Source of the DNA: Nothopassalora personata | Taxonomy: Eukaryota; Ascomycota; Dothideomycetes; Mycosphaerellales; Mycosphaerellaceae | Reading direction: 5' to 3' | Assembly: GCA_033816765.1 (NCBI GenBank) | Contig: CM066290.1 | Location: 2,790,001 to 2,854,000 of the forward strand | Length of the DNA stretch: 64,000 bases | Part shown: positions 2 to 37,454 of the stretch, in pieces | Position numbering within the stretch: the first letter of the stretch is position 1 | Layout of the letters: every line of letters starts with the position of its first letter | Made by a program: the position numbers and the translations under genes | The notes under the pieces: model-generated | Seen by the model: the letters and a program-made list of their open reading frames with translations, nothing else | Told to the model about the DNA's origin: nothing | The model's database searches: none

Positions 2-265
2 GCCATTACAGAACGACCACCGATAGGAAGCCGAATAACAGGAACCGGATATCTTACACCGTCAGGGACATTCATATCGAATGAATTACGAACAGCAGTA
101 CAGCATGTACGGGCTCTCTACTCAGAAACGCAGAAGATCCAGGAACGCAATAGATTACAAGTGTGGACACAGGGCAACGGGCTACAGGTTCTAGCCGAAG
201 CCTCTAGGCACGAAGCACAGCGAACCGCATACCATTCGGGAAAAGGATCAGCTCCCCAGGAATGA
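2..265 (+). CDS. Gag polyprotein C-terminus (partial), element A
   Basis: Frame 2 is open from the window edge to a TGA at 263-265 (87 codons visible). The visible part is hydrophilic, rich in Arg, Gln and Glu, with no zinc knuckle, so this is the extreme C-terminus after the nucleocapsid or a linker. It is called Gag by position, directly upstream of pol in a -1 frame relation. Its stop overlaps the pol start as ATGA (262-265), a layout known for termination-reinitiation translation. No start is visible. Confidence 0.6.
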   Translation, partial: AITERPPIGSRITGTGYLTPSGTFISNELRTAVQHVRALYSETQKIQERNRLQVWTQGNGLQVLAEASRHEAQRTAYHSGKGSAPQE

Positions 266-3200: not shown

Positions 3201-3687
3201 AACACGCAAGGCGATCGAAGATGCACAACGAAAACTGTCTCAACAACGGCAGGACACGAGAAAAATGGCACCTCTGCTAAAAGAGGGGGATAAGGTCTAT
3301 CTCCTTACAAAAAACTTGAGAACAAGAAGACAGACCAAGAAACTGGATCACGTCAAGGTCGGACCATTTTTAATCGACAAAGTCGTAGGACTAGTCAACT
3401 ATCGACTACGACTACCACCAGACGCCAAAATCCACCCAGTCTTCCATATCTCCAAGTTGGAACCCGCAGACGCCGAAACACCCTGCCAGGAGAGCTTCCA
3501 TTTTAAACCGGAAGCAGAAAACGAATTTGAAGTCGAAAGAATCCTAGATAAGAAAGGTCAGCGATACCTTGTCAAATGGAAAGGATACGACGAATCAGAA
3601 AATACCTGGGAACCAAAACAAAACCTACGAAACTGTCAGCAAAAGATCCAGGAATACTACAAGACCAAAAAGCGGCCAGCGGACTAG
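262..3687 (+). CDS. Pol polyprotein, chromovirus type, intact
   Basis: 1141 aa. The retropepsin comes first, with DSG (residues about 37-39) in a MIDSGAAGNF context. The reverse transcriptase follows, with YMDD at residues 396-399, then RNase H around 540-650. The integrase has an HHCC zinc finger (about 725-767) and a catalytic triad with first Asp in TMDF, second Asp in ITDRD and Glu in QTER; the last two are 35 residues apart as in the D,D35E family. A C-terminal chromodomain (about 1089-1135) has the aromatic-cage pattern YLVKWKGY and W-E-P. Chromodomains of this class are known to tether integration to methylated histone H3. The ATG at 262 overlaps the gag stop. All motifs are present, so the copy may be active. 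Confidence 0.95.
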   Translation: MSDRRELCNTQAHASTSNTVFQTQAIVNGHKTSVMIDSGAAGNFISESFTRRNGLATLKKKWGYELIAVNGSPLPSVEWETIPLPLAIQQHHENITLDVTDMASHDIVLGMPWLRKHNPVIDWRRGVLTFRECDCVVDIQPAQWQRSLADEARKQLNEIQLAPTRRTKEPPSTGTDTGVGPPGHEVTGSDGSNAPSKNTNISELSIPKEYRKWSRLFEEERGKTALPKHRPWDHKINIQPGKEPPWGPLYQMSEKELQTLREWLKEKLAKGWIRRSTSSAGTPCMFVPKANGKLRLVQDYRKLNEITIKNRYPLPNIEEAQDRLTGSDWYTKIDLRDAFYAIRMAEGEEWKTAFRTRYGLYEFLVMPMGLTNAPASCQDLVNETLRDLLDVCVIAYMDDILVYTKGSLQEHIKQVQDVFERLTQSGFKTAPEKCEFHKKEVKFLGFIISTTGITIDPAKTQSIREWPEPKTVKDVQSFLGLANYNRKFIKDYSKIAAPMTMLTRKDVTWKWGKEQTEAFKKLKEQCASAPTLRLFDGSKEVHIETDASDMAIGACLTQTHDGQRHPVAYYSRKMTTAEQNYDIHDKELLAIVAAMQHWRVYVEGPPKLTILSDHKNLTYFTTTKELTRRQARWSELLGQYKFEIKYTPGRENGRADALSRRSDYMEGKEPVQHKILKTNPDGSLSANTREFNNIVRILGDRDEQFPISQGKYQVPKDREEECIRQHHDGPNYGHPGTSKTMDLIQRSFSFPQMRLKVSRYIKQCVHCQRNKAARHAKYGHLQFRTPPTKPWDEVTMDFITKLPPSRDQVTKQPYDMILVMVDRLTKYAHFIPASETYNAEQLGYLVLDRLIRYHGFPQAFITDRDKLFTSNYWKTLMGTIGIKHKLSTAYHPETDGQTERMNQTLEQYLRHYINYAQDNWVSLLPMAQIALNNHKSETTSTTPFYANFGKDPNLFGTPGSHPQAERAIVTTDTLKEVHKETRKAIEDAQRKLSQQRQDTRKMAPLLKEGDKVYLLTKNLRTRRQTKKLDHVKVGPFLIDKVVGLVNYRLRLPPDAKIHPVFHISKLEPADAETPCQESFHFKPEAENEFEVERILDKKGQRYLVKWKGYDESENTWEPKQNLRNCQQKIQEYYKTKKRPAD

Positions 3688-3709: not shown

Positions 3710-3716
3710 CCGGGAG

Positions 3717-3790
3717 CAGCTAGAGTAGGAATCGAACCCACGACCTCAAGAGTGTAGACAACTTGCGCTCTACCACTGAGCTACCTAGCC
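3717..3790 (-). pseudogene. tRNA-like segment between pol and the antisense ORF
   Basis: Read on the minus strand, a 7-bp acceptor stem (GGCTAGG against TCTAGCT, two wobbles), a D arm (GCTC-AGTGGTA-GAGC) and a T arm (GTGGG-TTCGATT-CCTAC) fold as in a tRNA. The anticodon arm is irregular: four pairs plus a mismatch around a 9-nt loop. A- and B-box promoter motifs are intact. It looks like a captured, degenerate tRNA rather than a decoding gene. No counterpart was seen in the RIP-mutated copy of the element. Confidence 0.5.
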
Positions 3791-3829: not shown

Positions 3830-4369
3830 CTAAAGGGACTCTACCCCTAGGGACTCGCCCCAAGGCTCCGCCCCAGAAAGCGCCGCCCAGTCATTTACGG
3901 GCATCTCTAGGATATCCGAGAAAGGAACTAGCGAAGGAGGCACCTCTACCCCCGACGCCTGTTCAAGGGACGCTAGCTCCTCGCGCGCCTCTTCTTCCTC
4001 GAGCTCCTCCAACTCCTTAGCGACGGCATCATCGGTACGACGCTCAGCTAACCGTAGCTGTTTCCGAAGACGGATCTTGCGCATCTTCAGCCGCACCTCC
4101 TCCTCTTCGATCCTCTCAAGCTCCAGCTTGAGTTTATCGCGCGAATCGCGAAGGCGTTCCCACTCCGGACGAGAAAGACGCACATCGCAATCCTTACAGC
4201 CTTTTCGAATGCAGGCCGAACACTTCCCAGACCGAGAGCCCACGATACACCTCACTACTGCGCCCGAGGATCGAGACTTCTGACAATTCGTACATGGGGC
4301 CATTTCGATACCGGAAACTTCAGTATCCGAAGCAAGTCGTTGACGGCGTTTGTGGGAGGAAGAAGACAT
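3830..4369 (-). CDS. Antisense accessory ORF: Cys cluster plus coiled coil
   Basis: 179 aa, ATG at 4367-4369, antisense to the retroelement and reading inward from its 3' LTR. Residues about 27-60 hold a Cys cluster (CxxC, Cys, CxxC, Cys, then C-x2-C), followed by W, a long Glu/Lys/Arg coiled coil (about 70-135) ending in LRKQLRLAERR, and an acidic tail. The same layout occurs in the ORF at 20308-20880 and in a decayed ORF at 16040-16439, each beside a 3' LTR. The cluster recalls fungal Zn2Cys6 domains but the spacing differs, so metal binding is inference. Position suggests transcription from an antisense LTR promoter. Function unknown. Confidence 0.75.
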   Translation of the reverse strand: MSSSSHKRRQRLASDTEVSGIEMAPCTNCQKSRSSGAVVRCIVGSRSGKCSACIRKGCKDCDVRLSRPEWERLRDSRDKLKLELERIEEEEVRLKMRKIRLRKQLRLAERRTDDAVAKELEELEEEEAREELASLEQASGVEVPPSLVPFSDILEMPVNDWAALSGAEPWGESLGVESL

Positions 4370-4444
4370 CGTTGCGAGACACGAAAAGGAAGTACAACAT
4401 GACTTAAGAAGCTTCGGGACGAAGCTAGGCTAAGAAGGGGATGG

Positions 4445-4826
4445 TGTTACGGAATGATTCCCATGGACCCTGGAATCATAATGACAAGACGAACACGTGA
4501 CTCAAAGACGAACACGTGACTCATCCTGCCTGAGCGCTCAGACTTGGAGCGATCAGACTGCTCATGCTCAGACTGATCAGACTGCTCATGCTCAGACTGA
4601 TCAGACTGATCACCGAGATCTACGAATCTCCTTTGTATTTAGGAACGCTAGAAACCCTTATGGTTCTGATGCGTTCAACTCATGTTACTATCTCACTGAT
4701 TGGAATACAACTCTTATTCCAATTATTCATCTTCGCTCAGCTTGCTTCAGCCTCTCCAAAGAATAATCCCGCCACGTGACTTGACTTATCTCTCTTTGAG
4801 ACTAGCCCTGGAACGAGACAATAACA
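4445..4826 (+). repeat. 3' LTR of element A
   Basis: 382 bp, starting TGTTACGGAATG and ending GAGACAATAACA (TG...CA). It carries CACGTGAC motifs and an array of TGATCAG-type units at about 4550-4615. The first ten bases match the LTR start of the gag-only element at 19881-22328 (read on its coding strand), so the two families are related. Confidence 0.8.
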
Positions 4827-4949
4827 CGCGTTAGGTTTCGCGATCGTAGGTATTATATCCTAATTGTTTAGTGCTAAGTAGCATCCTATCGCGTTCTATT
4901 TACGTAAGATAATACTAGCCGAGTGTAACTACGAGACGTACGATTAGGA

Positions 4950-5694
4950 GCTACTTATAGTAGTTAAGGCTTTTAAGCATTAGAGGCTATACTTAGAGGG
5001 CGCTACGCATGCGGTACGAGTGCTAGTCGACTACGCTAACCTATAGGGCTTTATAATAGTAAAGTAGCTAAATGGGCGGTAAGCTCGATAGGCTACGTTC
5101 CTATAGTCTTTTAATTTTGTAGTGGAGCATCGGCCGGGTAAGACTAACCTAGCCGACGCGCCTTCGAGACGTAGTAACTACGTAGCTATAACGTAATAAA
5201 CTTCGAACTTACTACCTACCTTATAAAGTAAGCTATCTTTCTAGAAGAAGTCTCTAGAAGGGATAAGCGAGCCGACGGTAAAGCGCGTACTTACTACCTA
5301 CGAGGCGATATAGGGCGACATAGGCGCGGTAATAGCAGTGCGGAGAGGTAACCTTCCCTATTAAGACAAGCCGTCGTTACTAGTAGTAGTGTACGCTACA
5401 GTAATATAGGGTTAAGCTTATAGCTCGACGGGTGAGTTAATCCTACTCTTAATAAAGATCGCGTAGTAGTAAGACGACTAGTATATCGTATACTTAGCGT
5501 AGGCGCTAAGCGCGAGGGACGCTAAGGGATAGCATATAAAGGATAACCTTATGTACTACAGAGACGCGATCGTAGTACCTAGGGATTACGCAATTAGGTC
5601 GCATCTAGTTCGTATGCACTACGACGACGTCCTCGCTGGTTACTTTAGAAGGACTAAGACTAAAGAGCTGTTACGACGTAATTATTAGTAGGAC
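4950..5694 (+). pseudogene. RNase H and integrase zinc-finger remnant, gypsy B
   Basis: With stops read through, the frame gives the RNase H/connection region (YLEGA, VDYANL, a HRPGKTN motif and an ADAPSRR end) and then the first half of an integrase HHCC finger (H...H) just before the inserted LTR. Stops sit at expected Trp and Gln positions, as expected from RIP. Confidence 0.75.
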
Positions 5695-6669
5695 TGTCAC
5701 GAGACAGCCCTTTCACTCACTGCCCCGCGACACGTCATCGGCCGCAGCCCCGCACGCTAGCGGCCGCTAGCGCCCACTAGCCCGCTTCGCGTTCCCTTAT
5801 CTTCTCGTCGTCCTATAGAGAGCGCCTTCACGCGGCGGACGACGTAAGTATCTTCGTTACGACGAAGAGAAACTAAGACTCTCTCTCTCGAAAAATACAA
5901 GCCTACTCGACTCGAAACAAGAAAAGACAGGTCGGACGAACCGAACGAACGAGATACGCTCAAAATCTACAAACAAGAACTCCGGAACTGCGAGAAGGGA
6001 AAGCGACGTACATAGCGTACACGTCGCTCGAACAACGAAGGCGCTGTCTACCTGTCGTCCCGGCAAACCACGTAAACTGCCGGCTGGAACCAAGAGAGGC
6101 GTTTAGGGGCGCAAACCACGTATACTGCACGGCTGGAACCAAGAGAGGCCGAGGGGGGGACGACAGCGAGGCCACTGCGACCGAGGAGCTACACTCGAGA
6201 CCGGAGAACGCGACTGGATTGAAACAGAGGCAACGGGTGTTTCTTGGGATTTTGCTCGGTGCGTACGGGTACGGCCGGCTTGGCTTTTTAAAACAAGAAC
6301 GAGACACGGGCGCAAAACTTGTCTCGCCCGGGGCAAGGCGACAAACCGCAATTCTCGACAAGACACGACTACCGGGTACGCGCGTACTACGCCGCAATAT
6401 ATTCGATTTACGGTTCGAATAGCGAGCGTTGCTCGCATCTTTTAAGGAGTTTTTACGTCCGGGGTACGACGGGGCTTTTCTCCTTCTCTCAAATTTTGGT
6501 CTCGTTCTCGAGACCCGTGTTGCATAGTCTTTGACTCAAATAGCACGTTAATGGAATAATCAATCAATCAATCCCTTATCTTCTCGTGCGTACCTTCGAC
6601 CTCTTAGATAGCTCGCGTAACTACATATGTCTCTACCTGTACCCATAGTAGTCCCTCTCGCCCGTGACA
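5695..6669. mobile_element. Solo LTR, 975 bp, target duplication AGGAC
   Basis: The insert starts TGTCACGAGACAGCCC and ends CCCGTGACA; the terminal TGTCACG/CGTGACA is a perfect 7-bp inversion. It is flanked by AGGAC at 5690-5694 and 6670-6674. Removing it rejoins the integrase HHCC finger of gypsy B: the histidines lie before, the CxxC after. No coding sequence is convincing inside. The middle part is only lightly RIP-mutated, the right end more so. The dead LTR that ends at 62829 has the same last nine bases. Confidence 0.85.
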
Positions 6670-7862
6670 AGGACTTACTTAGTACGGACGTGAAGCAATA
6701 CGTCCAAGCCTATAGAACCTACTAGGGTTCGAAGGCTAAACGCTATCGATCCTATAGTAGGCTATAACCGCTTCCTAGACCGGAGCGGCCGTAGTAGGAA
6801 ATTACTATAGATTTTATTACGGACCTACCTCTAAGCACGCGAGCCGGTTGCGTGTATAATACGATCCTAGTAATAGTCGATCGCTACTTAAAAATGAGCT
6901 TATACATCCCGACGACGAAGACTTATATAGCCGTGGAGCTTACGAGGCTCCTACGAGACGAAGTCGTACGACACTATAGTGTCCCGTTAGGCATAGTAAG
7001 CGACCGAGGTCCGGTCTTCACTAGTTAGTTTTAGAGTAACTTCTACTTCGAGGCGCGTGTGAACCGTAAGCTATCTACGGCCTTTTACCCTTAGACTAAC
7101 GGCTAAACTGAGAGGGCAAACTAAACCCTCGAACAATATCTTCGTTATTACTGTAGTAACAATTAAACTAAGTGGGCTAAGTGGCTTACAGTTACTAAAT
7201 AGCTAATAACAGTATCTACCTAACACTACGGATAAGTCCGTTCGAGATAGCGCACGGTTAGCGACCTAAGATTGCCCCTATACTAACTAGATCTCGAGAC
7301 GAGACCTAGGGGGGGGGAAGTACTAGTAGCGGTAATAGCTACGAGTCGCATACGAAAACTACGCGCTACACTCGAGGAGCGATAGAAGGCTATAGTAGAA
7401 AGCTAGGCTCGCTACTATAATAAGACCTACTAAGCTAAGACCTACCGCGTAGGTAACTTAGTCCTGTTATTAACGAAGAACCTTAAGTTAGTAGTGCTAA
7501 AGAAGAAGATAGGTCCGAAGTTTATCGGCCTATACCGCATTACGGACGCTATCGGTTCGTAGGCGTACCGCCTAGCGCTACTAGCCGACTTAAGGCTCTA
7601 TAACGTCTTCTATGTATGTCTCTCTCCTCGAGCCGTATATCGGTAGCGATAAGGATAGACCCGTACCCCCTCTAGCTAATAAGGACGGAGAGTATAAGGT
7701 AGAGGCAGTACTAGATAGGCGTAAGCGTAAGGGTAAGCTGTAGTATCTAGTCTAGTGGAAGGACTAGCTAGAGGAGTATAATAGCTAGGAACCGGCGGAG
7801 GGCCTCGCGAATGCGGATCGCATAGTAGCCGACTATAAGGCGTTAAGGAGAAGCAAATAAGA
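6670..7862 (+). pseudogene. Integrase and chromodomain remnant, gypsy B
   Basis: Contains the CxxC half of the integrase finger (decayed to YxxY), a DFITDLP motif with the first catalytic Asp, an IVSDRG motif with the second, and a TERAN motif with the Glu. A chromodomain follows at about 7690-7858 (YKVEAVLD, WEPAEGL) in which Trp codons read TAG. This is a direct view of G-to-A RIP damage. Confidence 0.85.
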
Positions 7863-9044
7863 CTAGCATAGGAGTACTAGAGCATAAACAAAACTTTTCT
7901 TAACTATAAACAAAACAAAAGCTAAAGAGTAGCGCGCCTACTAGGGGCTACGTAGAGTGGTAGTAGGCGAGGAGCCCGCGAGTAGCGTGTAAGGCGAGCG
8001 CCTTAGTTGTCGTCGCGTAGTAACTTAGGTAGGAATGCCTAGTTAGCGGCGGTAGTGTTAATGTTCTACGCCTATAGGAACTAGGACTACGGTTAGTAGG
8101 GTACACGTATGCGAGGAATATACGACTTACGGCGCGGCCGAGTTCGAACAGCCTATTAAGGGCGCGGTTCTACTCCTACTAGAGCGCGAGGGCTACGGCG
8201 GCGGGGGCACGTATGCGGGTCTCCCCGGTACGCTTATGCTTATAGGTATTGAACTACCTAATGGCCTATAGAAAGGGTTAGCCGAAGTATAGGAGACGTA
8301 CTAGAGCCCCCCCCCCGCGAGTAGTAGTTGACTCGTAGGAGTAAAGTAGCGACTTACCTCCGTAATGTCGTTACCTAGCTAGGCATATAGGCGGATCTAC
8401 TCTACTAGCTCCTACTACTAGAGGTCTATAGGCGCCTAGCCTATTATAGCCGTAAGGAAGTCGCGCTAGGAGCGCGCGGCGCGTAGGCGGCTCACTAGCG
8501 AGGCGATAGCGTAGCTAGTGTTAGGCTCGCACTTGTGTCTATTGCGCCTATAGCGGCCGCACTTCTTTAGGAGCTCGCCGGTAGTAATACTATTATAGTT
8601 ATCGGCTTCGTCTAGTAAGTAGTTAGTATACGAATCGTAGGCGGCGCGCGTAGAGACTTACCCTTAACGAAGTATAGGAGGCACCGTATATATATATTAA
8701 TCCTCTACGAGAGCTTAGTAGCGGGCGAGGGCGTTAGTAGCTACGAGGGGGATGCTAGTCGCTTACGACTACCGGGCGTTCTAGGTACGTCGCGCACTAG
8801 AGCCGCCTAGCGGCGCTCGTCTTCTAAGGCGCTAGTAGTACTATTGCTACTAATGCTACGGAAGGAGGCGGAGCGGCTAGAGGACGGAGGCGAGGAGGGC
8901 CCGTTAGATATAATAATAATAATGCTAGCGAGGCGCTTACGGTAAGGGTACGGTGCGGGTGCGTAGTAGTAGTATGACGGAGGTGGTACGCTAGGGAACG
9001 TGCTAGGAGAATAGGGCTAAGTTAGGCTAGAGTTTTATACCCCT
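7863..9044 (-). repeat. RIP-mutated repeat D with an unknown minus-strand ORF
   Basis: No recognised gene. Read on the minus strand, about 8100-9040 resembles 23230-24380 on the plus strand. Both contain the same decayed reading frame with a TTGELLKK stretch, Cys/Arg-rich residues and a RLRAAR motif. The function is unknown. Confidence 0.5.
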
Positions 9045-9198
9045 AACTATTACTTCTCTAAGGTTCTCGTGCCTACCCCTACGGTACGGCTTCCTAGAAT
9101 TAAGCCGATCTCTCACCTAATATAGGCCTCTTAGCGGGATAAGGTACCTACCGTAAAAGTCAATTTACTAACCTCGCCGTCGCTAAACTCACCTAATG

Positions 9199-9298
9199 GC
9201 ACCGCGCAATAAGCGCAAGGCTACTACTACTACTATAGGGCTATCTAATCGACCTACGCGTACGCCTAAGCCTAGCCGCCGGACTCGTGATATCGAAG

Positions 9299-9331
<33 letters not shown>

Positions 9332-10740
9332 AGCTATAATAAGAATAAGCTCTACCGCCGCGATCTACTTAATCGCCTATTCCGGACGATAAAGATAAAG
9401 TTAATACATAGGATAAAGAGGAGGCCGAGAACGCTGTTCGTAAGAGGCCGCAATATAAGTACCGCTTGCTATTTAAGATTAACGACCGTAATAAGCTAAA
9501 TGCGCCGCCATTATAGACTAACGCGTATATTACTATCGACCGTAGACACCCTCTTAAGTAGACCTTAAAGGAGTACGTAATCCGGTAGTACCGCAGTTAG
9601 CACTTAAATAAGCGAGATAAGGCGAACTAGATATTCGATAAATACTCAATTCGGTTAATCGCTATGTACGATAACCTAGTAGTTAGTAGAGCTTATACCG
9701 TTAAGTTAAACTCGGAGGACTGGCAGCGCTAGGTTAATATAGCCTACGACTTAATAGATTAGTAGGCCTCTAAGAACAGGCGTAGCATTATGCTCACTTT
9801 CTAGGTGTTGTTATATCTAGTACTAATAGAGCCGCTATAGTCGTAGTAACTACATGCTATACCTACTCGGCGTAGTAGTGCATCTTAGCGTACTACACCT
9901 TAGAGTGTAACACGCACGATGTTAATAGCCCGTAACTATCGCCGGCGTAAGGACACGATCTTTAAGGAACCTAAGGCTAAGGCTAAGGCTCTACCGGTAG
10001 ATAAAGATAAGAACGGAGATCTTTGTAATCCAATTAAGGCGCGCTAGCCTTATAAGAACACGCGGTGTCGTTAGTACGGCTAGTAGTGTTATTATGTCGG
10101 CCTAGACACCTATAATAACTACCTGCTTATCTATAGAGAAGTAGCGACTAAATAGGCGCGACTAATTAGGCTCGGCCGTACTACTGTCGAAGACCTAACG
10201 ACGGAGCTAGTGTTTCGAATGTAGAAGTACAAGGTCCGGCATAGCTTAGATAATGCTAATCCATTCACTAGCTCGAGATCGAAGGGTAGTGCGGCGAATG
10301 CGTAGGTACCTATTATCGTTAATAACCACCTTAGCGGAGGTGTAGGTGTTATAGGTAGTATCTAATATTCTTACTAGTACCCTCTATCTTCACCGCCTAG
10401 ACCCATTATAAACGAGCTCTTAGATCTAGCGATTAAGACCGAGGGTTTCTTTCGCATGTGCGAGCTCGATCCTTTCTAGATAAATAGAGAGGGTAACCTT
10501 ACCGCTATTCGTGAGAAATTCATCTACGAAGATTAGGCCCTATCGAGGGTATTAAAGGTCGATATAGCGACGTGGATTCGGTATAGATTTAAGGAAGGGC
10601 AATTCGAGCGCTTCAAGGCTTGTGCGAGGGAATGGCGGTCTCGTAAGGCGTAGAAAAATAGTAAAAATATGCCGACAACGAGAGGCGATAGCGCGTACGA
10701 CGACGCCTTAATATCGCGTATATAAGGTATTATTGTTGTC
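9199..10740 (+). pseudogene. Decayed ORF of unknown function inside the mariner-like element
   Basis: An open frame of about 510 codons starts MAPRNKRKA and holds a poly-Thr run encoded by an (ACT)n microsatellite (about 9297-9330). It shows TAG/TAA only at plausible Trp/Gln positions. It has basic and mixed regions, with motifs such as YKYRLLFKIN and FKEGQFERFKAC. I do not recognise it. It could be a second ORF of the transposon or a captured gene. Confidence 0.5.
9290..9332 (+). repeat. (CTA)n microsatellite
   Basis: About eleven tandem CTA/ACT triplets, reading as poly-Thr in the decayed ORF. Confidence 0.8.
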
Positions 10741-11339
10741 GTATTAGTATTAAGATAATAAGGTAAAGCTAGAAATAATAACTATCTTAACGGCTATCTT
10801 TAAGCATCTTAGACCCTAAATCCGAGAAGGTCGGGAAGATAGGTTTACACTTTATAGCCCGATAACTACGCATTCGTTTCGCTCCAACTTTTTTTTATAT
10901 AGCAGCGCTCACCAAGGAACGAAAGAATATATAAATATCTAAAGAAGAGGTGTTGTAGTTGTTAGGTAATATCGTGTGAAGCCGTTAGACCCTAATGTTC
11001 CGCGGGAGCCGAAGAATTCCCGGGAAGATTCTTCCCGAATGCTTCACTAGCGATGCTCGAGTAGGTAGAGATAGGCTAAGACGACATCGTTTTTAAAAGT
11101 AATGAATTCGATCGATTTACTACTAAAACTAGCCTTACTAAGAAACCAATGTGTCCAAACTAGTCTCTACTTACCTAAAACACCGCGGATAGCTAATTTT
11201 ACTCCTAGCACGACATCGATATTCTCCCTTTATAGCGACCTCGAACGTACTTATAAGTAACGACACTTTTAGCACCACCTTCTTTACTACCGCCTATCAA
11301 ATAAGAACTACCTCCTTTATTACTACTGCCGCCGCCGCC

Positions 11340-12480
11340 TTCCTTACCTCCGCCGTTCGAAGACGCTAGAATCGAAGCAATATAGAGCGCGGTAATAGAG
11401 CTACAGAATTCGGTAAACGCAATGCGGGGCTTCGTCCTTTAGCTATCTATAAGGGTGTTAGTAATTAAGGACTATCTTAAGAAAGAGACGGCCTTTAAGA
11501 GGTGGATACATACTCATTAATAGCCGCTTTACTAGAACTAAGTAGGTGCTGCCCTTTCGATCTTACACTCTATTAACGCGTGTACTATAAAGTAGCCGAA
11601 GGTGTCGTACGTAGTAGCCTTAGCAATGTTCTTCTTCACCTACGCCTTTAGCGATAAGAACGACAACTTAATAGGGTTAAAGTCTAGTGAGTATAGCGGT
11701 AGATATTTAAGCCTAATGCTAGTAGTGTCGTAGAGCTCCTTTACACGTACACTGCGATAAATAGACGCGTTATCTATCACTAGATACATCCCTCTCTTTA
11801 GCTACGGTAACACTACCAATTTAAGCTAATCTTCGAATATGTCGCTCTTAATTAAGCCCTAATATATAAGCGGGTCCGCTAGATAGCTATAAGTGGTTAT
11901 CGCTAGTAACACCGACCACCTCTTCGAGCGCTTAGATCTACCGTGATCTATAGTAGGTGTATTCACCTCTAACTATCTATACTTTCGCTAACTAGTGCGT
12001 TCATTCGACGCGCTCTTATCTACGTAATACACCTAGTCTACTAGCATAAATATCTACTTTTCTCTAAAGTCCTCACGTAGTATCTAATTCGCCTCGAGCG
12101 CGCGACGCTATGTCTTCTTCTACGAGAAGTGAAGCTCGTTATAGATGTAGTTACTAACCGCCTATATAGAGAGCATAAGATCGAACTTATCGTAGATAAA
12201 CCACACGATCTCGTCTAGATAAGCAGTAGGTCGATCCTTTAAGAAGTCGTACATGTATTTAAGCTACTATAGCGATAGTAGCTTTAGCGGCCCTCTCTTC
12301 TACTATACTAGATACGGCTCTCCGAACAGCTCGATATTCGCTCGAATCTTATCGATATAGCGACGGCTAATCTATGTCTTATAGTAGATACGACGGCTCG
12401 ATAGGCCTTTAGTAAAGTAGTCGCGGAGCTCGTTAATCTAATATAGTAGTAACTAGCGTGGATCTAGTATAGCTAACAAC
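11340..12480 (-). pseudogene. Decayed Tc1/mariner-type DDE transposase
   Basis: On the minus strand the reading frame shows the C-terminal signature of the DDE superfamily endonuclease: a VDxxxxNERT-like block, a DHGRSKRSKRWSV stretch, a DNASIYRS motif (second Asp) and a YSLDFNPI motif (normally YSPDFNPIE). The N-terminal half is helix-turn-helix-like. Many Trp and Gln codons are stops, as in RIP. The last Glu of the triad appears altered (NPIK). Confidence 0.75.
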
Positions 12481-12650
12481 ACCTAGGACTAGCCTATATA
12501 GCTATTATAACGGCTTCATTCGAGACGATAGCGACAGTAAGGTGCATTAGGATAGAGGAGATGCGCACAGCCAAAATTAGGTGCGAGGATCTCCTATATC
12601 CCGCGCCGAGGCTATAGGGGGTGGGTACGAGAACCTTAAAGGAGCAATAG

Positions 12651-13010
12651 CTACGTCGGTATAGTAACTAAGCCTTACTTACCTATACCTACATAACGAC
12701 ACGCACGTAACCCGTATGTAGGCCGCATAGTAACTATAGTTCTAGAAGTACGTAGGAACCTCTACGTAGCAACTAGCGAGCTAAGGACAGCTCGCACGGG
12801 AGGGGAGGCAATTGTAAGGGGTAGCCTAGTAGCTAACCCTTATATGTAGCCTTACATATAATATGCAGTCGCGACCGGCTACTAAGCCGCACGTGATACG
12901 CATACGTACACCTTACGACGCGCGATGCGTCTTAAACAAAAGGCAAGAATTAGTTTATCTACGACTAGTAGGTCGTAGGCGTGCTATACATTACGACATC
13001 CCCTAACAAC
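12651..13010 (-). repeat. LTR-like end of repeat D, inverted copy of 22868-23060
   Basis: About 12780-13000, read on the minus strand, matches 22868-23060 on the plus strand, with RIP-type differences. It borders the truncated pol copy at 13011. No gene seen. Confidence 0.5.
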
Positions 13011-15935
13011 TACCTTCGACCGGGATAGACACTAGCGTAGGGCCGCCGGGTTATAAAGTTACTAGAAGTAATAGAAGTAACGTACTATCGAAGAATACTA
13101 ACATCTTAGAGTTAAGTATTCCTAAGGAGTATCGTAAGTAGTCGCGACTCTTTAAAGAGGAAAGAGGTAAGGATACCTTACCTAAGTACTAACTATAGGA
13201 TTATAAGATAAACATTCAGCTAGGGAAAGAGCCTCTATAGGGACCCCTATATCAAATGTCTAAGAAAGAGCTATAGACCCTACGAGAATAGCTAAAGGAG
13301 AAGCTAGCTAAAGGATAGATAAGAAGATCTACCTTAAGTATAGGAACTCTATACATGTTCGTTCTAAAAGCAAACGGGAAGTTACAACTCGTATAAGACT
13401 ATAGGAAGTTAAACGAGATTACGATTAAAAACCGATATCTACTACTTAATATCGAAGAAGCATAAGATAGATTAACCGGATTAGACTAGTACACGAAGAT
13501 TAATCTACGAGATGCCTTCTATGCTATCCGTATAGTAGAAGGAGAAGAATAGAAAACCGCTTTTAGGATAAGATACGGACTCTACGAATTCTTAGTTATA
13601 CTAATAGAGCTAACTAACGCATCCGTATCCTACTAGGACCTTATTAACGAAACACTTAGAGACCTACTCGACGTATATATTATCGTATATATAGACGATA
13701 TACTAGTCTATACGAAAGGATCCCTCTAGGAATATACTAAGCGAGTCTAGGAAGTATTTAAACGGCTTACGCGAGTAGGCTTTAAGACGGCACCCGAGAA
13801 ATGCGAGTTCTATAAGAAAGAAGTTAAGTTCTTAGGCTTTATTATTAGTACTATAGGAATATCTATCGACCCTATAAAGACATAATCAATTAGAGAATAG
13901 CTAGAACCTAAAATAGTTAAAGAAGTATAGTTATTCCTTAGACTAGCTAACTATAACCGGAAATTCATTAAGGATTATTTAAAGACAGTAGTACTAATAA
14001 CGATACTTATAAGGAAAGACGCTAGCTAAAAATAGCGAAGAGAACAAGCCGATACGTTTAAGTAACTTAAGAAACAATACATATTAGCCCCTACGCTTTA
14101 ACTATTCGATAGTAGTAAGGAAGTCTACATCGAGACCGACGCGTCTAATATAGCAATAGACGTATGTCTAATATAGACACACGATAGGAAAAGACACCCC
14201 GTAGCCTATTATTTCCGAAAAATAACTATAGCGGAATAGAACTACGACATCTATAATAAAGAGCTTCTAGCTATTATTACTACTATATAACATTAGAGAG
14301 TATATATCGAGGGCCTACCGAAGTTAACGATTCTTTCTAACTATAAGAATCTTACGTACTTTACGACAACGAAGGAACTAACCCGAAGACAAGCCCGCTA
14401 GTTAGAGCTACTTAGACAATACAAGTTCGAAATTAAATACACTCTAGGAATAGAGAACGGCCGTACCGATGTACTAAGCTAAAGAAGCAACTATATAGAA
14501 GGAAAAGAACTAGTATAACATAAAATACTTAAGATAAACCCCGACGGAAGTCTTAGTACTAACGTAAGGGAATTTAATAATATCGTACGAATCCTAAACG
14601 ATAAGGAAGAATAATTCCCTATATCGTAAGGAAGATATTAAGTACCGAAGGAACGAGAAGAAGAGTACATACGTTAACATTACGACGAGCCGACATATAG
14701 ACATCCTAGAACGATAAAAACAATAGACCTTATATAACGTAGCTTCTTATTCCTATAAATAAGATAGAAGGTGTTACGCTACATTAAACGATGCGTACAC
14801 TACTAGTAAAATAAGGCTGCTCGACACGCTAAGTACGGTTACCTATAATTTAGGACACTACTAACGAAACTATAGGACGAAGTTACGATAGACTTTATTA
14901 CAAAGCTCCTATTGTCGAACGATTAGGTTATAGGCTAAATATATAACATAATACTCGTTATAGTTGATAGGCTTACGAAATACGCACACTTTATTCCTAT
15001 ATTAGAAACATATACTACGGAGTAGCTTGGATACCTTATACTAGATAGGCTAATCCGATACTACGGATTCCTAGAAGTTTTTATTACGGATAGAGATAAA
15101 TTGTTTATATTAAGTTACTAGAAAACACTTATAGGAACGATCGGAATTAAGTATAAGCTATCTATAGCATATTATCGAGAAACCGATAGATAAACGGAAA
15201 GAGTGAACTAAACGCTAGAATAATACCCACGGTACTAACATTAACTATACGTAAGATAACTAGGTTTTACTATTACTAATAGTATAGATTACACTAAACA
15301 ACCACAAATCGGAGATAACTTTAACGACGCTATTCTACGCAATCTTTAGAAAAGATCCTAACCTATTCGGAATACCTAGATCCTACCTATAAGCCGAAGG
15401 AGCAATTATAACGACGGAGACTCTTAAGGAAGTATATAAAGAAACACGTAAGGCGATCGAAGATGTATAATATAAACTGTCTCGATAACGATAAAATAAA
15501 GGAAAAATAGCACCTCTACTAAGAAAGGGGGATAAGGTCTATCTCCTTACGAAAAACCTAAGAACGAGAAGATAGACTAAGAAACTAGATTACGTTAAGG
15601 TCGGACTATTTTTTATCGATAAAGTTGTAGAACTAGTTAACTATCGCCTATAACTACTACCTAACGTAAGAATCTACCTAGTCTTCTATATCTGTAAATT
15701 AGAACCCGTAGACGCTAAAACACCTTACTAAAGGAGCTTCTATTTTAAGCCGGAAGTATAAAACGAATTCGAAGTTAAAAAAATCCTAGATAAGAAGGGT
15801 TAGCGATACCTTATTAAGTAGAAAGGATATAACGACTTAGAAAAAACCTAGGAACTAAGAAAAAACCTAAAAACCTATTAGTAGAGGATTTAAGAATACG
15901 AAAAACGAACGTACTTATCCGCTAGAAGGACTAGA
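13011..15935 (+). pseudogene. RIP-inactivated pol copy of element A
   Basis: Homologous to 770-3680 of the intact element, colinear through reverse transcriptase, RNase H, integrase and chromodomain. It starts abruptly at the equivalent of position 775, after the protease. TGG and CAG codons have become TAG or TAA throughout, with CA to TA and TG to TA changes on both strands. The YMDD region reads as Y-stop-DD-like. Confidence 0.9.
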
Positions 15936-16039
15936 AGTCGAAGAAGCCGCCGTAGCTTCCTCTAGAGTCGGATATAACTAGAGAGCATTATCCAGGATTA
16001 TCGAAAGATCCTCCTAGGAAGGAATTAGCATTTAAAAGA

Positions 16040-16439
16040 CACCCTCTAATTCCTCCGGACTCCCTTCCGGAATAAGGAGACACGACGAAGGCGCGGATAG
16101 AGCATCGATACCTATACTCGAAAAACTCCGAAGATCTTCGAAATCTTTCGCTACCGCCTTCTCCTCCCGATCCTTAGCGATATAAAGTTATTTCCGAAGA
16201 CGATACACCTTCGATATTACCTCGGTTACCTTCTCTTTAGCTTTATTAAGCTCGCGCTTTAACTTACGACGCTAATTATAAAGCCTCTCCTACTCGGTCT
16301 AAGTAACGGTAACGTTACACTTAACGCCCTTCTAGACATACTTAGAGTAATACCTAAAGCGTATATCTACTATATAACGTGGACTCTTCTTTCCCTCGGG
16401 TACTCGAGCCTTATAATAACTAGAATAAGGGGACGGCAT
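16040..16439 (-). pseudogene. RIP-decayed copy of the antisense Cys/coiled-coil ORF
   Basis: ATG at 16437-16439 begins MPSP, like the MPSS start of the intact ORF at 20308. A region with Cys-to-Tyr changes is followed by a Lys/Glu coiled coil ending in an LRKxL motif. Position and orientation relative to pol and the LTR are as in element A. It is the third instance of this ORF in the window. Confidence 0.7.
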
Positions 16440-16584
16440 TTTGCGACCTTCGGATTCGATACCTAGCGCCTAACGCTCGCGACGTTCCTAACGGGTTAGC
16501 TATTTGCCGCTTATAGTTAAGAAGAAGAGGAGAGAGACGTACGGAGTAGGGACTCGGGACGAGTCTTAATAAAGAGGGGGATAG

Positions 16585-17001
16585 TATTACGGTTTAATAT
16601 AAGAGAGCGGCGTAAAGACGTAGTATAGAGAGAAAGTAGAAGACGAGGACTAATCGCTATAAAGAAGGAATAACCGCTAAGGTTTAATTACGTATACGAC
16701 TATAGGCTTCGTATATAGTTATAGACGAGCGTAGCAGTAGCGTACTATCGAACACGACTAGACGATCTAACGACCGGTCGAATAGACGAACGGTCACTTA
16801 CTACGAGCTAGTATACGAATCTCCTTTATATTTAGGAACGCTAAGAATCCCTTATAGTTTCGAGGCGTTTAACTTACTATTTAATATTACTATTTAGAAT
16901 ATACTATAACCTAACCTCTACCTTACTGCTGCTTAGTCTTTATAAGACAAGACAGCTACTACTTTATTACTCTCCCTTAACTTCCTATCGGCCCGAGAAT
17001 A
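16585..17001 (+). repeat. RIP-mutated 3' LTR of the dead A copy
   Basis: Starts TATTACGG (from TGTTACGG) at the position equivalent to 4445 and shares the block GAATCTCCTTTATATTTAGG with the intact LTR and with the LTR at 37.45-37.80 kb. The right end is uncertain: similarity to the latter runs about 60 bp further. Confidence 0.6.
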
Positions 17002-17600
17002 AACCTAATTAAGCTTATACTCTTAACTTGTAATATTATTAGGTTATACTAAACCTAACATAGATATAGACCTTACTCTCTAGGTTTATATATAAGCTAC
17101 CCTTCTTAGTTTATACTTTAGATTAACCTAGTCTAGGTTATAGATAATATATCTAACTAGATCCTTCTCTAGTAGTACGCTAATTAGTATAGATTTCTAT
17201 ACCTAGAACTATACGTCCTTTCTAAGTACCTAGTTGTCCTTAGTAGACCTTACTAGGTTACTAGAGGTATTGTTTCTAAACTCTATATCTAGTCTAGCTC
17301 TTTTAGATACTATACTACGGTAATAATGCTTAGTACCGATGTCCTATAGCAGTTCTTAAATCCATTAGATAGTTATCCGTAAAACAAATATAGGGTCGGG
17401 TCTACTAGTAAGGTAAGCTAATCCTTAATAGAGCTTCGATAACAATTTAGGTTTTAAAATAAATAGGTAGAGGAGCACTCGGGCTTATAACCTATTATAA
17501 ATAGGATATTTTAACGAGTACAAGCTTCTAGATTAAAACAATAGGGTGGATTAGTAACCCTTATAAATTGCACACTATGTATAACTATCTAGCTACAGAA
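17002..17600. repeat. TA-rich RIP-mutated DNA, no recognisable gene
   Basis: Dense CTA/TAG content and stops in all frames. It is probably old transposon sequence, but the family was not identified. Confidence 0.4.
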
Positions 17601-18195
17601 ACAGTGTAATATAGGGTGTGTGTGTGCCAAGTCCTGACTAACATAGCCGTTGGTCACCTGATTCACAACAATCCTGGCTGCATGTTACTGTCGTACAGAT
17701 CACGCCGGTGCAGTACGTCAGGATGCCGTCTTTCCATGTAAGCTTTGTCCAACACGTTCTCGGCAAACTCCCAGTCGTCGCCCGTGTTAGGTAGGACCTG
17801 CCAGTGAATCTATATCTACATCCTCCCGAGCGGCGTACTCATCTCATCGCGTCCAAGTATCTCGAGGCTTGAGGATTCCTGGCCTGTCAGGTTCGTCATG
17901 CCTGACGTTCATGTTGTCGCACATCGAGACCAGCTTAGACATGATAGTCAGTGATAGCGGCTTCTGGCGAAGGTCCGACAACGGCGAAGGATCATTTCAA
18001 CGTGGGTGCATTCGTGAGTGGTCTTGGGTCCTTGCTTGCCTGTCTTTGGTTCGTGGACAGTCGCTCGTACGAGTCGGTTGCAAGTTTTTTCAAGCAAGCC
18101 GGGCAGGCCTCTCTGAGTCTGATCGCTGTAAGCAATCGCTAGTTGCCGAAAGGTACAGTGTGCCTCATGAAGAGAATTGAGTCATGGTTTGAGCG
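17601..18195. other. 600-bp island of unmutated sequence between dead transposons
   Basis: Base composition is normal with abundant CA/TG dinucleotides, unlike both flanks. A short GT run lies at about 17611. No ORF has convincing coding features. It may be single-copy host DNA spared by RIP, or a young insertion without visible ends. Confidence 0.5.
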
Positions 18196-19880
18196 GCCTT
18201 CTAGAGGATCTCGAGCCTAGAGTTAACGCGCACGTATTGTAAGTAGGTCCTTAGTCGTTTTAACCGATCCCTATTAATAATTCGCCTACGTCGGGTACTT
18301 AACCTTAATTGGTAGAATCGTGCGATAGCTATATAGGACCTAAGCTAGCGTCATTCTAGTAGTACGATAGGTCGTAGTCCTATTAGCCTATAACATAGCG
18401 GGTACCTATTACTCCTATCCGCGGTATGTGTTCCTTATAAGCTTTACTAACGCTATAACAATCGGACGGTACCTAACCTCGACCGGAGCATTAGACTACG
18501 GATAGTACGGTAATATTTGGATCCTTCGAACACTAAGCCCTACGAGTAACCGCTTAACCTTAGCCGTATAAACCGTAGCGTTATTAAGTACAATTTCAGT
18601 ATAGTAGCCGTGCCTATAGAAGACATCTTCGTATAGAAACTTAGTAACCGTCTTAGAGCTAGGAGGTGCCCTTATTACTCTAGCCTCGATCTAGTTGCTA
18701 AGTGCTTCGCGCGTAACTAGGAGGTATCCATTTTTATGTACCTAGACGGGGTCCGAGTACTACTTCTTACTAATAACCTAAGGGCTCGATAAGTAAAGCT
18801 TACTAGCGCGCTAGTTACCCTCGCGAAACCTATAGGGAGTATAACTTCGAACCTACGTAGAGACATCGGTAAAGCATCCGTCCTAGTAATACTAATCGGA
18901 AATAAGGTTATACACAACCTTAGCGCTACGATGACCGTGTCTTTTATAGCATTCTATAACGATCTCCTTCTAAGCCTTATTATCGTTAATTACAAGTTGT
19001 AACGGTACTCCTTAGCGCTTCTAGAAGAATAGCAATTAGTCCCGGATAAAGAAGTTAACGCTCTTCTTTACTAGCCGCCGGTACTTAGCACGGGTAATAC
19101 TATCGGGCCGGGTCCTAGTTTCTATTACCTAAGCAAGTTGCTAAGAGTTCTTAGAATATTAGTCTCCGAGATGTCGTATTTTCTAGATTTTAACTAGATA
19201 GGTGTTAACCGGCTCCGGGTACCCGAATAGCTTATTATTAATTATCTAGTCGACTTCGTCTTCGTTAGCTTCCCTAGGTTCCTAAGGTGTAGAGGGCCTA
19301 CGAGACAGGGCATCTAGGCTAGTGTGTCTAGTCCCCGTAACGTACTTTACCTTAAACGTGAATAACCTAATCTATGCGACCTACCGGGCCATTACCGAGT
19401 TCGGCATATCTATCGCTTTAGACTGTTCGCGATTCTACGATAGGGGACGCTACATTACGTAAACCTACAGTTTAGTGTCTAGGTCGTACCTCTCCGGTTA
19501 TATAGAGCGTTAATTCTCGCTCGGGTAGAAGGTACCCGCGTCCGCGACGCAACCGCGCTAGTATACACGTATGCTTATTTTAGCTACCTTCTAGATTAGG
19601 TCATTATTAATAACAGTCCTAGAGGTAGCCTTCTTAAGCGTGTTAATCTTAGGCTTAAGGCGCGGCATTTGCTTTACGACTAAGCGGTATAGCTAAGGTA
19701 AAGTAAGAGGGAAATCTATATGTATAGCTTTCTATCCCTCCTTACTATCTACGATACTAGTAGCTTTATCGAGGATCCTCTAAAAGTCCCTAAACTTCTT
19801 AGGTTACTTTAGGTAAAGCCCGCAAGCCTTATAGACCGCTTTCGCGACTCCCTCTAGTAATCCCTAAAGGAGGAGGCGAC

Positions 19881-20228
19881 TGTTAGGAACCGCTGTACGT
19901 TATCACAACTCGGGCTTGGATCTTTGCAGGGATGTCTCAATCAGTTATGAAGGTAGTGGTTCCAAACAGTATATGGTGTATACTTAAAATGAGTTGAGCA
20001 CGAGGCTCCTATCTACTCGTAAAGAAGCGTCGTCTATATAGTGCCATGTCTTGGCGTGATCTGTCCTGCTCTGCCCTGAGCGAGTCTGATCAACTGATCA
20101 AGAGTGATCAGGACCGATCAGTCCTGATCGCTCTGTCACGTGACTCCCCAGGCATCCATGTCTGCAGCTTCGTCTGGTTTCCTGCTCCGTTGTCCAACCA
20201 TTTGCACCGATAACACTGTTCCGTAACA
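19881..20228 (-). repeat. 3' LTR of the gag-only element
   Basis: 348 bp, identical base for base to 21981-22328. Read on the minus strand it runs from TGTTACGGAACAG to GGTTCCTAACA. It contains repeated TGATCA units, a CACGTGAC motif and a TATATA box (about 20076 region), plausible promoter parts. The antisense ORF starts about 80 bp inside its inner edge. Confidence 0.95.
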
Positions 20229-20307
20229 TAATCCCCCCCTTCAGCATTGTTGTCCCCAACAATCCATTTTATAAAGACTTGTGAGTCCTTTCCTTCTCTT
20301 GCTAACG

Positions 20308-20880
20308 ATGCCGTCCTCGACTGACCGTCGCAAGCGCGTTCTGGACGAAATTTCCCGGTCTGGTCTTCCCGCCGAATCCCCCTGCGACTACTGTAATAGT
20401 CGCGGCCTTTGTTGCATCATGCTTCCAGACGAATCTCGTTCCGCCCGCTGTTCCAACTGCATTTCCCAGGGTCGCAAGTGTGTGAATGCGTCGTGGTCTT
20501 CGCTTGACCGCACCAGGGAGCAGGTCTCGAGAGACCTTGAGAACTCCCTCGACGCTCTGGACAAGAAACAAGAGGAGTTGAGCGCTCTTCTTTCCAAGAT
20601 CTCGCGTCTCCGTCGCACTCTGAAGCTTGCCGAAGAGCGCGCTTCGAAGAAGGCGACGTGCCTCCAGGAAGAGTTGTTTCTGGAGGATCAGCAGACCTGG
20701 CGCTCGGAGCAATCCGCCATTCTCCGGTCCGATCCCGATCTTCCCCTCGAGCCCTTGTCGACCAAGTCCCTGCAGTGGTTGGATACTTTCGATTGGGACT
20801 CCCTTCCCGCTGGTTTCCTAGAAACCCCCAGTGGTGTCCTCCCATCGTGGGTATTCTTGTTCGTTGTGGCCGTGTCGTAG
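20308..20880 (+). CDS. Antisense accessory ORF of the gag-only element
   Basis: 190 aa from the ATG at 20308 (an upstream in-frame GTG at 20281 is not used here). The start MPSSTDRRKRVLDEI is followed by a Cys cluster at residues about 24-57 (CxxC, Cys-Cys, CxxC, Cys), SWSSLDRTREQ, a coiled coil (about 65-120) with LRRTLKLAEER, and an acidic/hydrophobic tail with WLDTFDW. It is the counterpart of 3830-4369 and 16440-16040. It runs tail to tail with gag (75 bp between the stops). Similar small proteins are, to my knowledge, common unnamed predictions in Pezizomycotina. Retention in an element that lost pol argues for a useful role in cis or for the family. Confidence 0.8.
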   Translation: MPSSTDRRKRVLDEISRSGLPAESPCDYCNSRGLCCIMLPDESRSARCSNCISQGRKCVNASWSSLDRTREQVSRDLENSLDALDKKQEELSALLSKISRLRRTLKLAEERASKKATCLQEELFLEDQQTWRSEQSAILRSDPDLPLEPLSTKSLQWLDTFDWDSLPAGFLETPSGVLPSWVFLFVVAVS

Positions 20881-20955
20881 TGTTGACTTCTTTTCCCTAG
20901 GTCATCAAATCAAGAAGCCGCTGTTTGATGCCTTGCTGTCCTCAGGTTGTTTCTG

Positions 20956-21948
20956 CTAGGCAGATTTCGAGAAGAAGTTCTCGCATTCCTGGTATGTATT
21001 CTCTTCGCGAATCATTGCGTTGAACTCGCGGCTAACCATGTTCTTTTTCTTGCAGTTCCTTGCAAAATGGCCTTGCTCGCCACATACGTAGCAGGTGGAA
21101 CCTTTGCTCTTCAGCCCCCTTCCTGTCCTACGTTCCGTTACGTCCAATTCCATTGGGTCTCCGTAACCATTAGGGTCCTGACTTCTGGCCTTGAAGCCCC
21201 CTCTTCCGCCCGCGGCGGGTCTCTGGTATCCAGGCTGTACGTGTCGGTCGTACCTCAACTCCTGGAGCCTTTCGTCGATCTCCTTTGCTGCCTTGATCAT
21301 CGCCCCTAGCGTAACGACGCTGGCGTTTCGGGATAGTTCGGCTTTGACGTTGTCTTTCAGCCCGAGGTAGAACTGCGATCGCAAAGCTGCGTCGTTCCAT
21401 TCCAGGTCGGCGGCATATCCTTGGAATTCTGAGGCGTATAGCGCTACAGAAGTGGTCTGTCGAAGTTGTCGGATATGTCGGTCGGCGTATACCTCCTCAT
21501 TAGGTATCCCGTATAGATCATCAAGTTTCGTCTCAAACTCGTCGTAGTCGTGGAAAATTTTTCGAGTTTCCGTTTTCGGTGTTTCTCCCTCGCCCTGGTT
21601 GTGTAGCCAGTCCTTGAGGTATGGTCGGAATCCTCTAGCTGCTTTTCCTCGTAGGAAGGATGCGGCGTACAAGACTTTAGAAGCCTCGCCTTGAAACTGG
21701 TGTGCGTTGAAGTGAAGGTACAACTGAACCTGCAGTTGAAAAGCCTCCAGTTTGTCCTTGGTCCCGTCGAACGTCTCCGGCGTAGACACCTTAGGTGCAC
21801 GGTGGTGGTCCAATGGGTTCAGCATACCCATAGGAGTGTTGTTGTTCTTGCTGCTTCCTGTAATCGACATTTCGCTCATTCGTTCCGTGATGCCAGTTGA
21901 CTGTGGCTGTTGTCGTGACGGACTCCGGGTAGCGTCTCTCCCAGACAT
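20956..21948 (-). CDS. Gag protein of the gag-only element
   Basis: 330 aa from the ATG at 21948 (an upstream TTG adds two residues and is not preferred). Residues about 45-190 match the retrotransposon Gag capsid domain (FETFDGTK, YLHF, SFLRGKAARGF, LYASEFQ, FYLGLKDNVKAEL). A Gly/Arg linker leads to one CCHC knuckle CYVCGEQGHFARNC near residue 290. The start lies only 32 nt from the 5' LTR, so the leader is very short. The frame is undamaged. It should form particles that package RNA; catalytic functions must come in trans. Confidence 0.92.
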   Translation of the reverse strand: MSGRDATRSPSRQQPQSTGITERMSEMSITGSSKNNNTPMGMLNPLDHHRAPKVSTPETFDGTKDKLEAFQLQVQLYLHFNAHQFQGEASKVLYAASFLRGKAARGFRPYLKDWLHNQGEGETPKTETRKIFHDYDEFETKLDDLYGIPNEEVYADRHIRQLRQTTSVALYASEFQGYAADLEWNDAALRSQFYLGLKDNVKAELSRNASVVTLGAMIKAAKEIDERLQELRYDRHVQPGYQRPAAGGRGGFKARSQDPNGYGDPMELDVTERRTGRGLKSKGSTCYVCGEQGHFARNCKKKNMVSREFNAMIREENTYQECENFFSKSA

Positions 21949-21980
21949 ATGCAAAGGGCCCTGGTGGTGGTGCTCAAAGT

Positions 21981-22328
21981 TGTTAGGAACCGCTGTACGT
22001 TATCACAACTCGGGCTTGGATCTTTGCAGGGATGTCTCAATCAGTTATGAAGGTAGTGGTTCCAAACAGTATATGGTGTATACTTAAAATGAGTTGAGCA
22101 CGAGGCTCCTATCTACTCGTAAAGAAGCGTCGTCTATATAGTGCCATGTCTTGGCGTGATCTGTCCTGCTCTGCCCTGAGCGAGTCTGATCAACTGATCA
22201 AGAGTGATCAGGACCGATCAGTCCTGATCGCTCTGTCACGTGACTCCCCAGGCATCCATGTCTGCAGCTTCGTCTGGTTTCCTGCTCCGTTGTCCAACCA
22301 TTTGCACCGATAACACTGTTCCGTAACA
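21981..22328 (-). repeat. 5' LTR of the gag-only element
   Basis: Identical to 19881-20228; outer flank GCGAC (22329-22333). It holds the sense promoter for gag. Confidence 0.95.
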
Positions 22329-37410: not shown

Positions 37411-37454
37411 AGGTTTAGTATATTATAAGTTAAGAAGATAAGCTTAATCGGGTT

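Follow-up and report, generated by a model that had tools for sequence, protein, structure and literature searches.

Why does a group of long terminal repeat (LTR) retrotransposons carry a small gene that points against its own gag and pol, beside the 3' LTR? The question is raised by a 64-kb stretch of contig CM066290.1 of the fungus Nothopassalora personata (genome of 54.5 Mb in 40 contigs). The whole stretch is called the window, and coordinates are positions in it. An earlier note on this DNA had listed three antisense open reading frames (ORFs), and their positions and orientation are confirmed: each adjoins a 3' LTR and reads inward, opposite to gag/pol. We propose, with a probability of roughly 0.55, that the ORF encodes a small Zn2Cys6-type DNA-binding regulator, probably an activator, of the U3 of its own family. 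The features of the three elements are as follows.

262..3687, + strand: pol of element 1 (family F1), with protease, reverse transcriptase, RNase H, integrase and chromodomain; stop at 3687
3830..4369, - strand: antisense ORF of element 1, 179 codons, open, Zn2Cys6-like
4410..4426, no strand: dyad between the element-1 3' LTR and antisense ORF, 7-bp arms, loop TCC
4445..4626, + strand: U3 in the element-1 3' LTR, 8 GA[T/G]CA sites
4627..4826, + strand: R-U5 in the element-1 3' LTR, the split being set by a core-promoter-like word and not by a mapped start
13005..15899, + strand: pol-like stretch of element 2, decayed by repeat-induced point mutation (RIP), 80% identical to element 1
16040..16439, - strand: antisense-ORF relic of element 2, protein match at 16379-16131
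16820..17016, + strand: R-U5 in the element-2 3' LTR, 81.5% identical to F9
19881..20043, - strand: R-U5 in the element-3 3' LTR
20044..20228, - strand: U3 in the element-3 3' LTR, 8 GA[T/G]CA sites
20246..20263, no strand: dyad between the element-3 3' LTR and antisense ORF, 7-bp arms, loop TCCC
20308..20880, + strand: antisense ORF of element 3, 190 codons, Zn2Cys6-like
20956..21954, - strand: gag of element 3, with capsid and zinc knuckle, without pol
21981..22328, - strand: 5' LTR of element 3, with the same sequence as the 3' LTR

As that note had it, the ORFs at 4369-3830 and 20308-20880 are intact and the one at 16439-16040 is a RIP-decayed relic. Element 1 has its 3' LTR at 4445-4826; the window begins downstream of its gag and 5' LTR. 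Of the 576 substitutions between element 2 and element 1 most are C>T or G>A (240 and 174), the pattern expected from RIP. Its relic matches the element-1 protein at 40% identity (E 4.7e-9), and the other 11 of the 12 family proteins gave no match there. Element 3 (family F2) is 2.45 kb long with its 3' LTR at 19881-20228; the 190 codons of its ORF are counted from the ATG, the open frame itself being longer. The suggestion that this gag-only element had lost pol does not hold, since taking pol away from element 1 would not give element 3, whose gag type is only about 37% identical to the gags of full-length elements.

A constrained protein with a six-cysteine cluster

With up to 150 matches scored for each genome search with the ORF proteins, the copy counts are lower bounds. 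This genome is heavily affected by RIP: among the 150 matches listed for the element-1 protein, 16 are open copies and 134 carry stops, mostly TAG. The element-3 ORF has 14 near-identical open copies among the 150 matches listed. Since open copies exist of both ORFs, and 166 public homologues were found at E<=0.001, the antisense ORF is more than a chance reading frame. The genome searches and fetched loci together contained 14 open-frame ORF types, RIP-decayed types being excluded, which represent at least 12 diverged families. Twelve families were kept; F7, which is close to F6, and F14, a form of F11 whose reading frame is shifted where the ORF begins, had been set aside before the count. 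Five of them bear pol (F1, F4, F9, F10 and F13), and the remaining seven (F2, F3, F5, F6, F8, F11 and F12) are gag-only, with elements of about 2.4 kb.

The antisense proteins, of 159-205 amino acids, form a family that is observed directly. The shared cysteine cluster reported for the three ORFs extends to all of them: six cysteines spaced C-x2-C-x(5-13)-C-x(5-16)-C-x2-C-x(5-8)-C are kept in 12/12 families and in 119/122 public homologues, and in 0/6700 shuffles. In 12/12 family proteins a long helix, predicted to be a coiled coil, lies C-terminal to the cluster. The tail behind it contains Trp/Phe and is poor in Lys and Arg. The coil ending LRKxLxLAExR, thought to be common to the proteins, occurs in element 1 (LRKQLRLAERR) and not in element 3 (LRRTLKLAEER).

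The cysteine cluster resembles the fungal Zn2Cys6 (GAL4-type) cluster. When a profile of the proteins was compared with the PDB, LAC9 ranked first of 37 entries at E<=1, with an E of 0.0028 that exceeds the default threshold of 0.001 and is weak taken alone; LEU3 (0.038), GAL4 (0.088) and AlcR (0.37) were also listed. The cysteine spacing, the predicted fold of the cluster and its sequence relation to solved Zn2Cys6 domains agree with the Zn2Cys6 class. With GAL4, LAC9, PUT3 and HAP1 the proteins share the six-Cys spacing, the predicted cluster and the coiled coil behind it, whereas they differ from fungal Zn2Cys6 factors in their small size and in a U3 motif that is not CGG. A further difference from GAL4 is that the residue aligned by eye with its Lys18, a CGG contact, varies (N45 G26 K21 S18 D4 in 120 rows).

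The constraint on the protein is likewise seen directly. The ratio of nonsynonymous to synonymous substitution rates (dN/dS), named as a check in the earlier note, was finite in 8 of the 12 pairs tested (66 being possible), with values of 0.16, 0.17, 0.23, 0.23, 0.24, 0.25, 0.48 and 0.61, well below 1; the other four pairs were saturated. With dS between 1.25 and 2.83 where it is finite, and thus close to saturation, the ratios are rough. Furthermore, the proportion of nonsynonymous differences was below that of synonymous ones (pN < pS) in the N-terminus, cluster, linker plus coil, and tail separately (5 pairs). Judging from these ratios the antisense ORF is under purifying selection, as had been claimed, although the divergence from which that claim was argued is by itself no proof of it.

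Exchange of the ORF together with U3

The gag proteins of the seven gag-only families are 97-100% identical. When six gag-only families were aligned in windows with F6 as the reference, identity was 88-100% in gag and 83-100% in R-U5, F3 excepted (43-67%). Identity to F6 dropped at about 1380-1450, the gag/ORF junction, stayed low across the ORF, the spacer and U3, and recovered once the 3' LTR core was reached. When the gag-only families were compared in pairs (21 in all), the median identity was 31% for the ORF, 66% for U3 (shuffled U3 56%) and 92% for R-U5, the pairwise R-U5 values being 91-100% without F3 and 69-72% with it. Full-length elements have the same mosaic. F1 and F10 are 96.3% identical in pol as far as 23 nt before the pol stop and 97.5% in R-U5, and their ORF and U3 show no similarity except a 37-nt match at the U3 edge. 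F1 and F13 are 94.2% identical as far as the ORF stop, after which similarity is found in a 101-nt block at the ORF start/leader and in R-U5 (98%). F4 and F9 are more distant from F1 (pol 77% and 87%).

One U3 can also be found on two types of R-U5, as in F11 and F11b (U3 156/156 identical, R-U5 155/161) and in F6 and F7 (U3 152/153, R-U5 153/161). Among the loci compared, no case was seen in which the ORF and U3 were separated from each other. In these mosaics the antisense ORF and U3 behave as a single exchangeable cassette on a shared backbone. During reverse transcription the U3 of both LTRs is copied from the 3' LTR. Template switching therefore predicts that the ORF and U3 are never separated, both U3s deriving from the 3' LTR.

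The LTR pairs had no substitutions in 13/14 elements compared, F1 and F4 being the only pol-bearing ones in this count, and one substitution in the remaining element. Since the pairs are nearly free of substitutions, the insertions must be young. Many recently active cassettes on one backbone are also what would be expected if the ORF encoded a repressor of its own U3, acting in copy-number control. The cassettes would then be immunity groups, and a new cassette would escape the resident repression, so that escape would favour diversity. In lambdoid phages it is repressor/operator cassettes that define immunity groups. The predicted binding architecture and the motif evidence given below are equally compatible with repression. 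However, the tail, poor in Lys and Arg and containing Trp and Phe, is closer to activation domains than to repressors, as far as resemblance goes, and single cassettes reach a high copy number, for instance at least 16 open copies of F1. We consider a repressor rather unlikely.

Motif arrays in U3 and the proposed regulator

GAKCA (GATCA or GAGCA) tops the 4368 five-letter motifs counted in U3, with 97 occurrences against 22.5 expected (z 15.8); the palindrome TGATCA is counted twice here, and the largest z in 200 shuffles was 5.0. The motif is not enriched in R-U5 (7 against 10.7 expected). With palindromes counted once, 8/12 U3s hold 7-18 sites, whereas background windows of 180 bp (1543 of them, taken from three parts of the window that are free of these LTRs) hold at most 5 each. 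The base before GAKCA depends on the family, being T in F1 (7/8) and F10 (8/8), C in F8 (18/18), A in F9 (10/11), F11 (7/7) and F13 (11/11), and mixed in F2 and F12. The permutation p for this is 0.0002 (78 sites), an optimistic value since tandem duplication makes the sites non-independent.

These arrays are seen directly, whereas the binding of zinc and DNA by the protein is inferred. Built of a zinc cluster, a long coiled coil and a W/F-containing tail, it would most likely bind as a dimer to short sites that are clustered in its own family's U3 and raise transcription there. U3 in the 5' LTR would drive gag(-pol), and in the 3' LTR, where it stands directly upstream of the antisense gene, it could drive transcription of that gene. 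A single template switch between gag/pol and the ORF would carry the gene and its promoter sites jointly, so that the regulator would stay paired with its sites, with gag, pol and R-U5 common to families. The earlier idea of a nucleic-acid-binding factor serving the element's own regulation is supported, and made sharper, by the Zn2Cys6-like cluster, the purifying selection and the exchange together with U3; the note's other suggestions, RNA packaging and an effect on host silencing, are less likely rivals. Gag-only elements must borrow Pol yet keep their own ORF, which fits a regulator that other families could not supply; the closest pair of full-length and gag-only ORFs among the 12 families, F1 and F12, is 50% identical.

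Several observations weigh against this proposal. On the protein side, the strict PROSITE-type Zn2Cys6 pattern with basic residues fits only 3/12 families and 6/122 homologues. Pfam Zn_clus (PF00172) is found at E<=1 in 5/12 proteins, at best with 3.6e-4, and F2 scores 7.8 bits against a cut-off of 21. The PDB list mixes coiled-coil proteins among the zinc clusters, and the acidity of the tail is weaker in F3, F4, F5 and F8, whose final 55 residues include 4-5 Lys/Arg. On the DNA side, the GAKCA array is absent from the U3s of F3, F4, F5 and F6 (1-2 sites each), for which a common motif was sought and rejected, the best z of 4.8 being equal to the largest null value. Since the ORF-U3 linkage is mechanical and follows from reverse transcription alone, it does not by itself prove functional matching. 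A graded co-divergence of ORF and U3 was rejected, since a Mantel test that compared ORF identity with the k-mer similarity of U3 was non-significant (r 0.04, p 0.35). Finally, every element compared was found through the ORF, so that ORF-less elements would be missed, and the argument from a regulator that cannot be supplied shares this bias. A possible counter-example to that argument is F14, whose LTR pair is substitution-free, so that it may have moved although its ORF is not intact.

The mechanical linkage and the negative Mantel test are also what would be expected if the ORF served another step, such as RNA packaging, nuclear import or integration, with the U3 differences unrelated to it and the arrays serving host factors; we regard this as unlikely. 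On this reading old ORF-U3 alleles simply stayed linked while recombination spread gag, pol and R-U5. In 12/12 families a dyad is found 16-38 nt inward of the 3' LTR edge, with a polypurine-like tract on one side and the ORF on the other, and it could act as a signal for packaging or priming. CACGTG, a plausible site for a host factor, recurs in several U3s. A parallel is the chromodomain gypsy element crapaud of Podospora, in which U3 (up to the TATA box) diverges into 14 subfamilies whose relations, as in the elements described here, do not follow the internal region, R-U5 is conserved, and the cause of the divergence is left open (PMC10787394). It differs in that the paper nowhere uses the word antisense, and a figure legend names two ORFs only, gag and pol (PMC10787394). 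On the other side, if the arrays served a host factor whose specificity is fixed, the base in front of GAKCA should not have to differ by family, and the zinc-cluster resemblance points to DNA.

In 3/14 insertions (L039, L056 and L045) the two LTRs differ solely by gaps in U3, of 24, 24 and 18 bp, and therefore the arrays change size, at or after insertion. Size-changing, family-specific non-coding arrays together with a divergent element-encoded protein recall VANC of the Arabidopsis VANDAL transposons (PMC5735166, in part), and the protein could accordingly be an anti-silencing factor that, bound to its U3 array, lifts or prevents silencing by the host there. Like the proteins here, VANC is described, in the excerpts available, as diverging fast, with family-specific motifs in changing tandem arrays; unlike them it belongs to a DNA transposon, has other domains, and its binding and demethylation have been shown experimentally (PMC5735166, PMC10398659). 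The VANC domains (DUF1985/DUF287) are not among the 25/67 Pfam families listed for the 12 proteins, and we consider anti-silencing improbable. As to the regulator that we favour, its tail points to activation, but repression with escape, or anti-silencing, would also agree with the number of coexisting cassettes.

More generally, and tentatively, exchangeable cassettes of an antisense Zn2Cys6 gene and a matching U3 array may make families of fungal Ty3/gypsy elements transcriptionally independent within a genome. The antisense position beside the 3' LTR would then keep the gene and its sites together, because both U3s derive from the 3' LTR, which would explain where the gene is located. If true, this would also account for the U3 subfamilies of fungal LTR elements and would be a eukaryotic retroelement counterpart of the exchange of repressor/operator cassettes in phages. 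With 12 proteins and 12 U3s, the question of function becomes a binding question with built-in specificity controls.

Related systems and further observations

Foamy viruses encode Tas, which is not known to be related to the antisense ORF protein. If the activator reading is right, the two are alike as element-encoded activators that bind their own U3 and the promoter of their own gene; Tas differs in its sense orientation and in having an internal promoter in env, as the excerpts of that paper describe it (PMC3185757). The closest fungal parallel by gene position is brtn, an additional antisense gene reported in 2011 in Boty-like (BcGypsy1) elements of Botrytis cinerea (cited in passages of PMC8365987, PMC7264820, PMC4227169 and PMC5987419). 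The gag-pol of these elements includes a chromodomain (PMC4227169, in part), and brtn, like the ORF of element 1, occupies the interval from pol to the 3' LTR in a gypsy element that carries a chromodomain. The likeness is one of gene position, and the gag-only families described here differ in lacking pol; the citing passages mention neither a zinc cluster, a U3 link nor cassette exchange. The functions of antisense ORFs beside the 3' LTR in plants and fungi are described as unknown in the passage of PMC7264820. In plant Retand elements, according to part of PMC11963269, the antisense ORF for TRP28 likewise follows pol and precedes the 3' LTR; its product is predicted to bind DNA, and tandem arrays lie close to it. 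The TRP28 domain (PF04195) is different and not among the Pfam families listed for the proteins here. Among the titles and opening lines of abstracts listed by searches of the open-access literature, none describes a Zn2Cys6 gene in antisense orientation within a fungal LTR retrotransposon, which leaves subscription papers uncovered and does not prove absence. Antisense genes and U3 subfamilies are separately known, and within these searches the combination of antisense gene, U3 array and cassette exchange appears to be new. In the elements described here the antisense gene and the diversified U3 form a single exchangeable unit, in which a DNA-binding architecture can be recognised and candidate target sites are present.

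In U3 the word CACGTG is found in F1, F2, F5, F6 and F10, and it also occurs in the antisense-ORF leader of F3, F4, F5, F6 and F8 (e.g. L055:831-933); it is possibly a host-factor site. Two further LTRs of this group lie in the window at 37440-37799 and 57513-57831, with no matching antisense ORF there. The first combines an F1-like U3 (80%) with an F9-like R-U5 (83%) and the second an F11 U3 with an R-U5 of the gag-only type. Copia regions apart, no other clear LTR retrotransposon that could act as an ORF-less control was seen in the window.

The arms of the dyad vary by family, with 6 or 7 net pairs and a loop that is mostly TCC or TCCC (shuffle p 0.002-0.030 each), and the dyad may be a hairpin for priming or packaging. 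The arms were considered as the binding site of the protein and rejected, there being by eye no consistent match to the U3 motif of the family.

The gap that separates pol from the antisense ORF in element 1 holds a tRNA-like sequence (3716-3790, - strand; also L041:3258-3332, called 'tRNA-Pyl' with anticodon CTA by ARAGORN), of which copies occur at L048 and L051, two loci of the F13 type, and at RIP-decayed loci. It is probably a degenerate tRNA-derived insert and appears to resemble tRNA-Lys. An amber-suppressor tRNA reading the TAG stops made by RIP was rejected as unlikely, given a T-T mismatch in the anticodon stem and the lack of two T-arm bases in the F13-type copies. Furthermore, the gag stop TGA of element 1 overlaps the pol start ATG (ATGA; L039:4262-4265), so that gag-pol needs no TAG readthrough; the overlap suggests stop-restart translation of pol. 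In F4, an open frame of 582 codons runs antisense through most of gag (L044:7571-9316, + strand).

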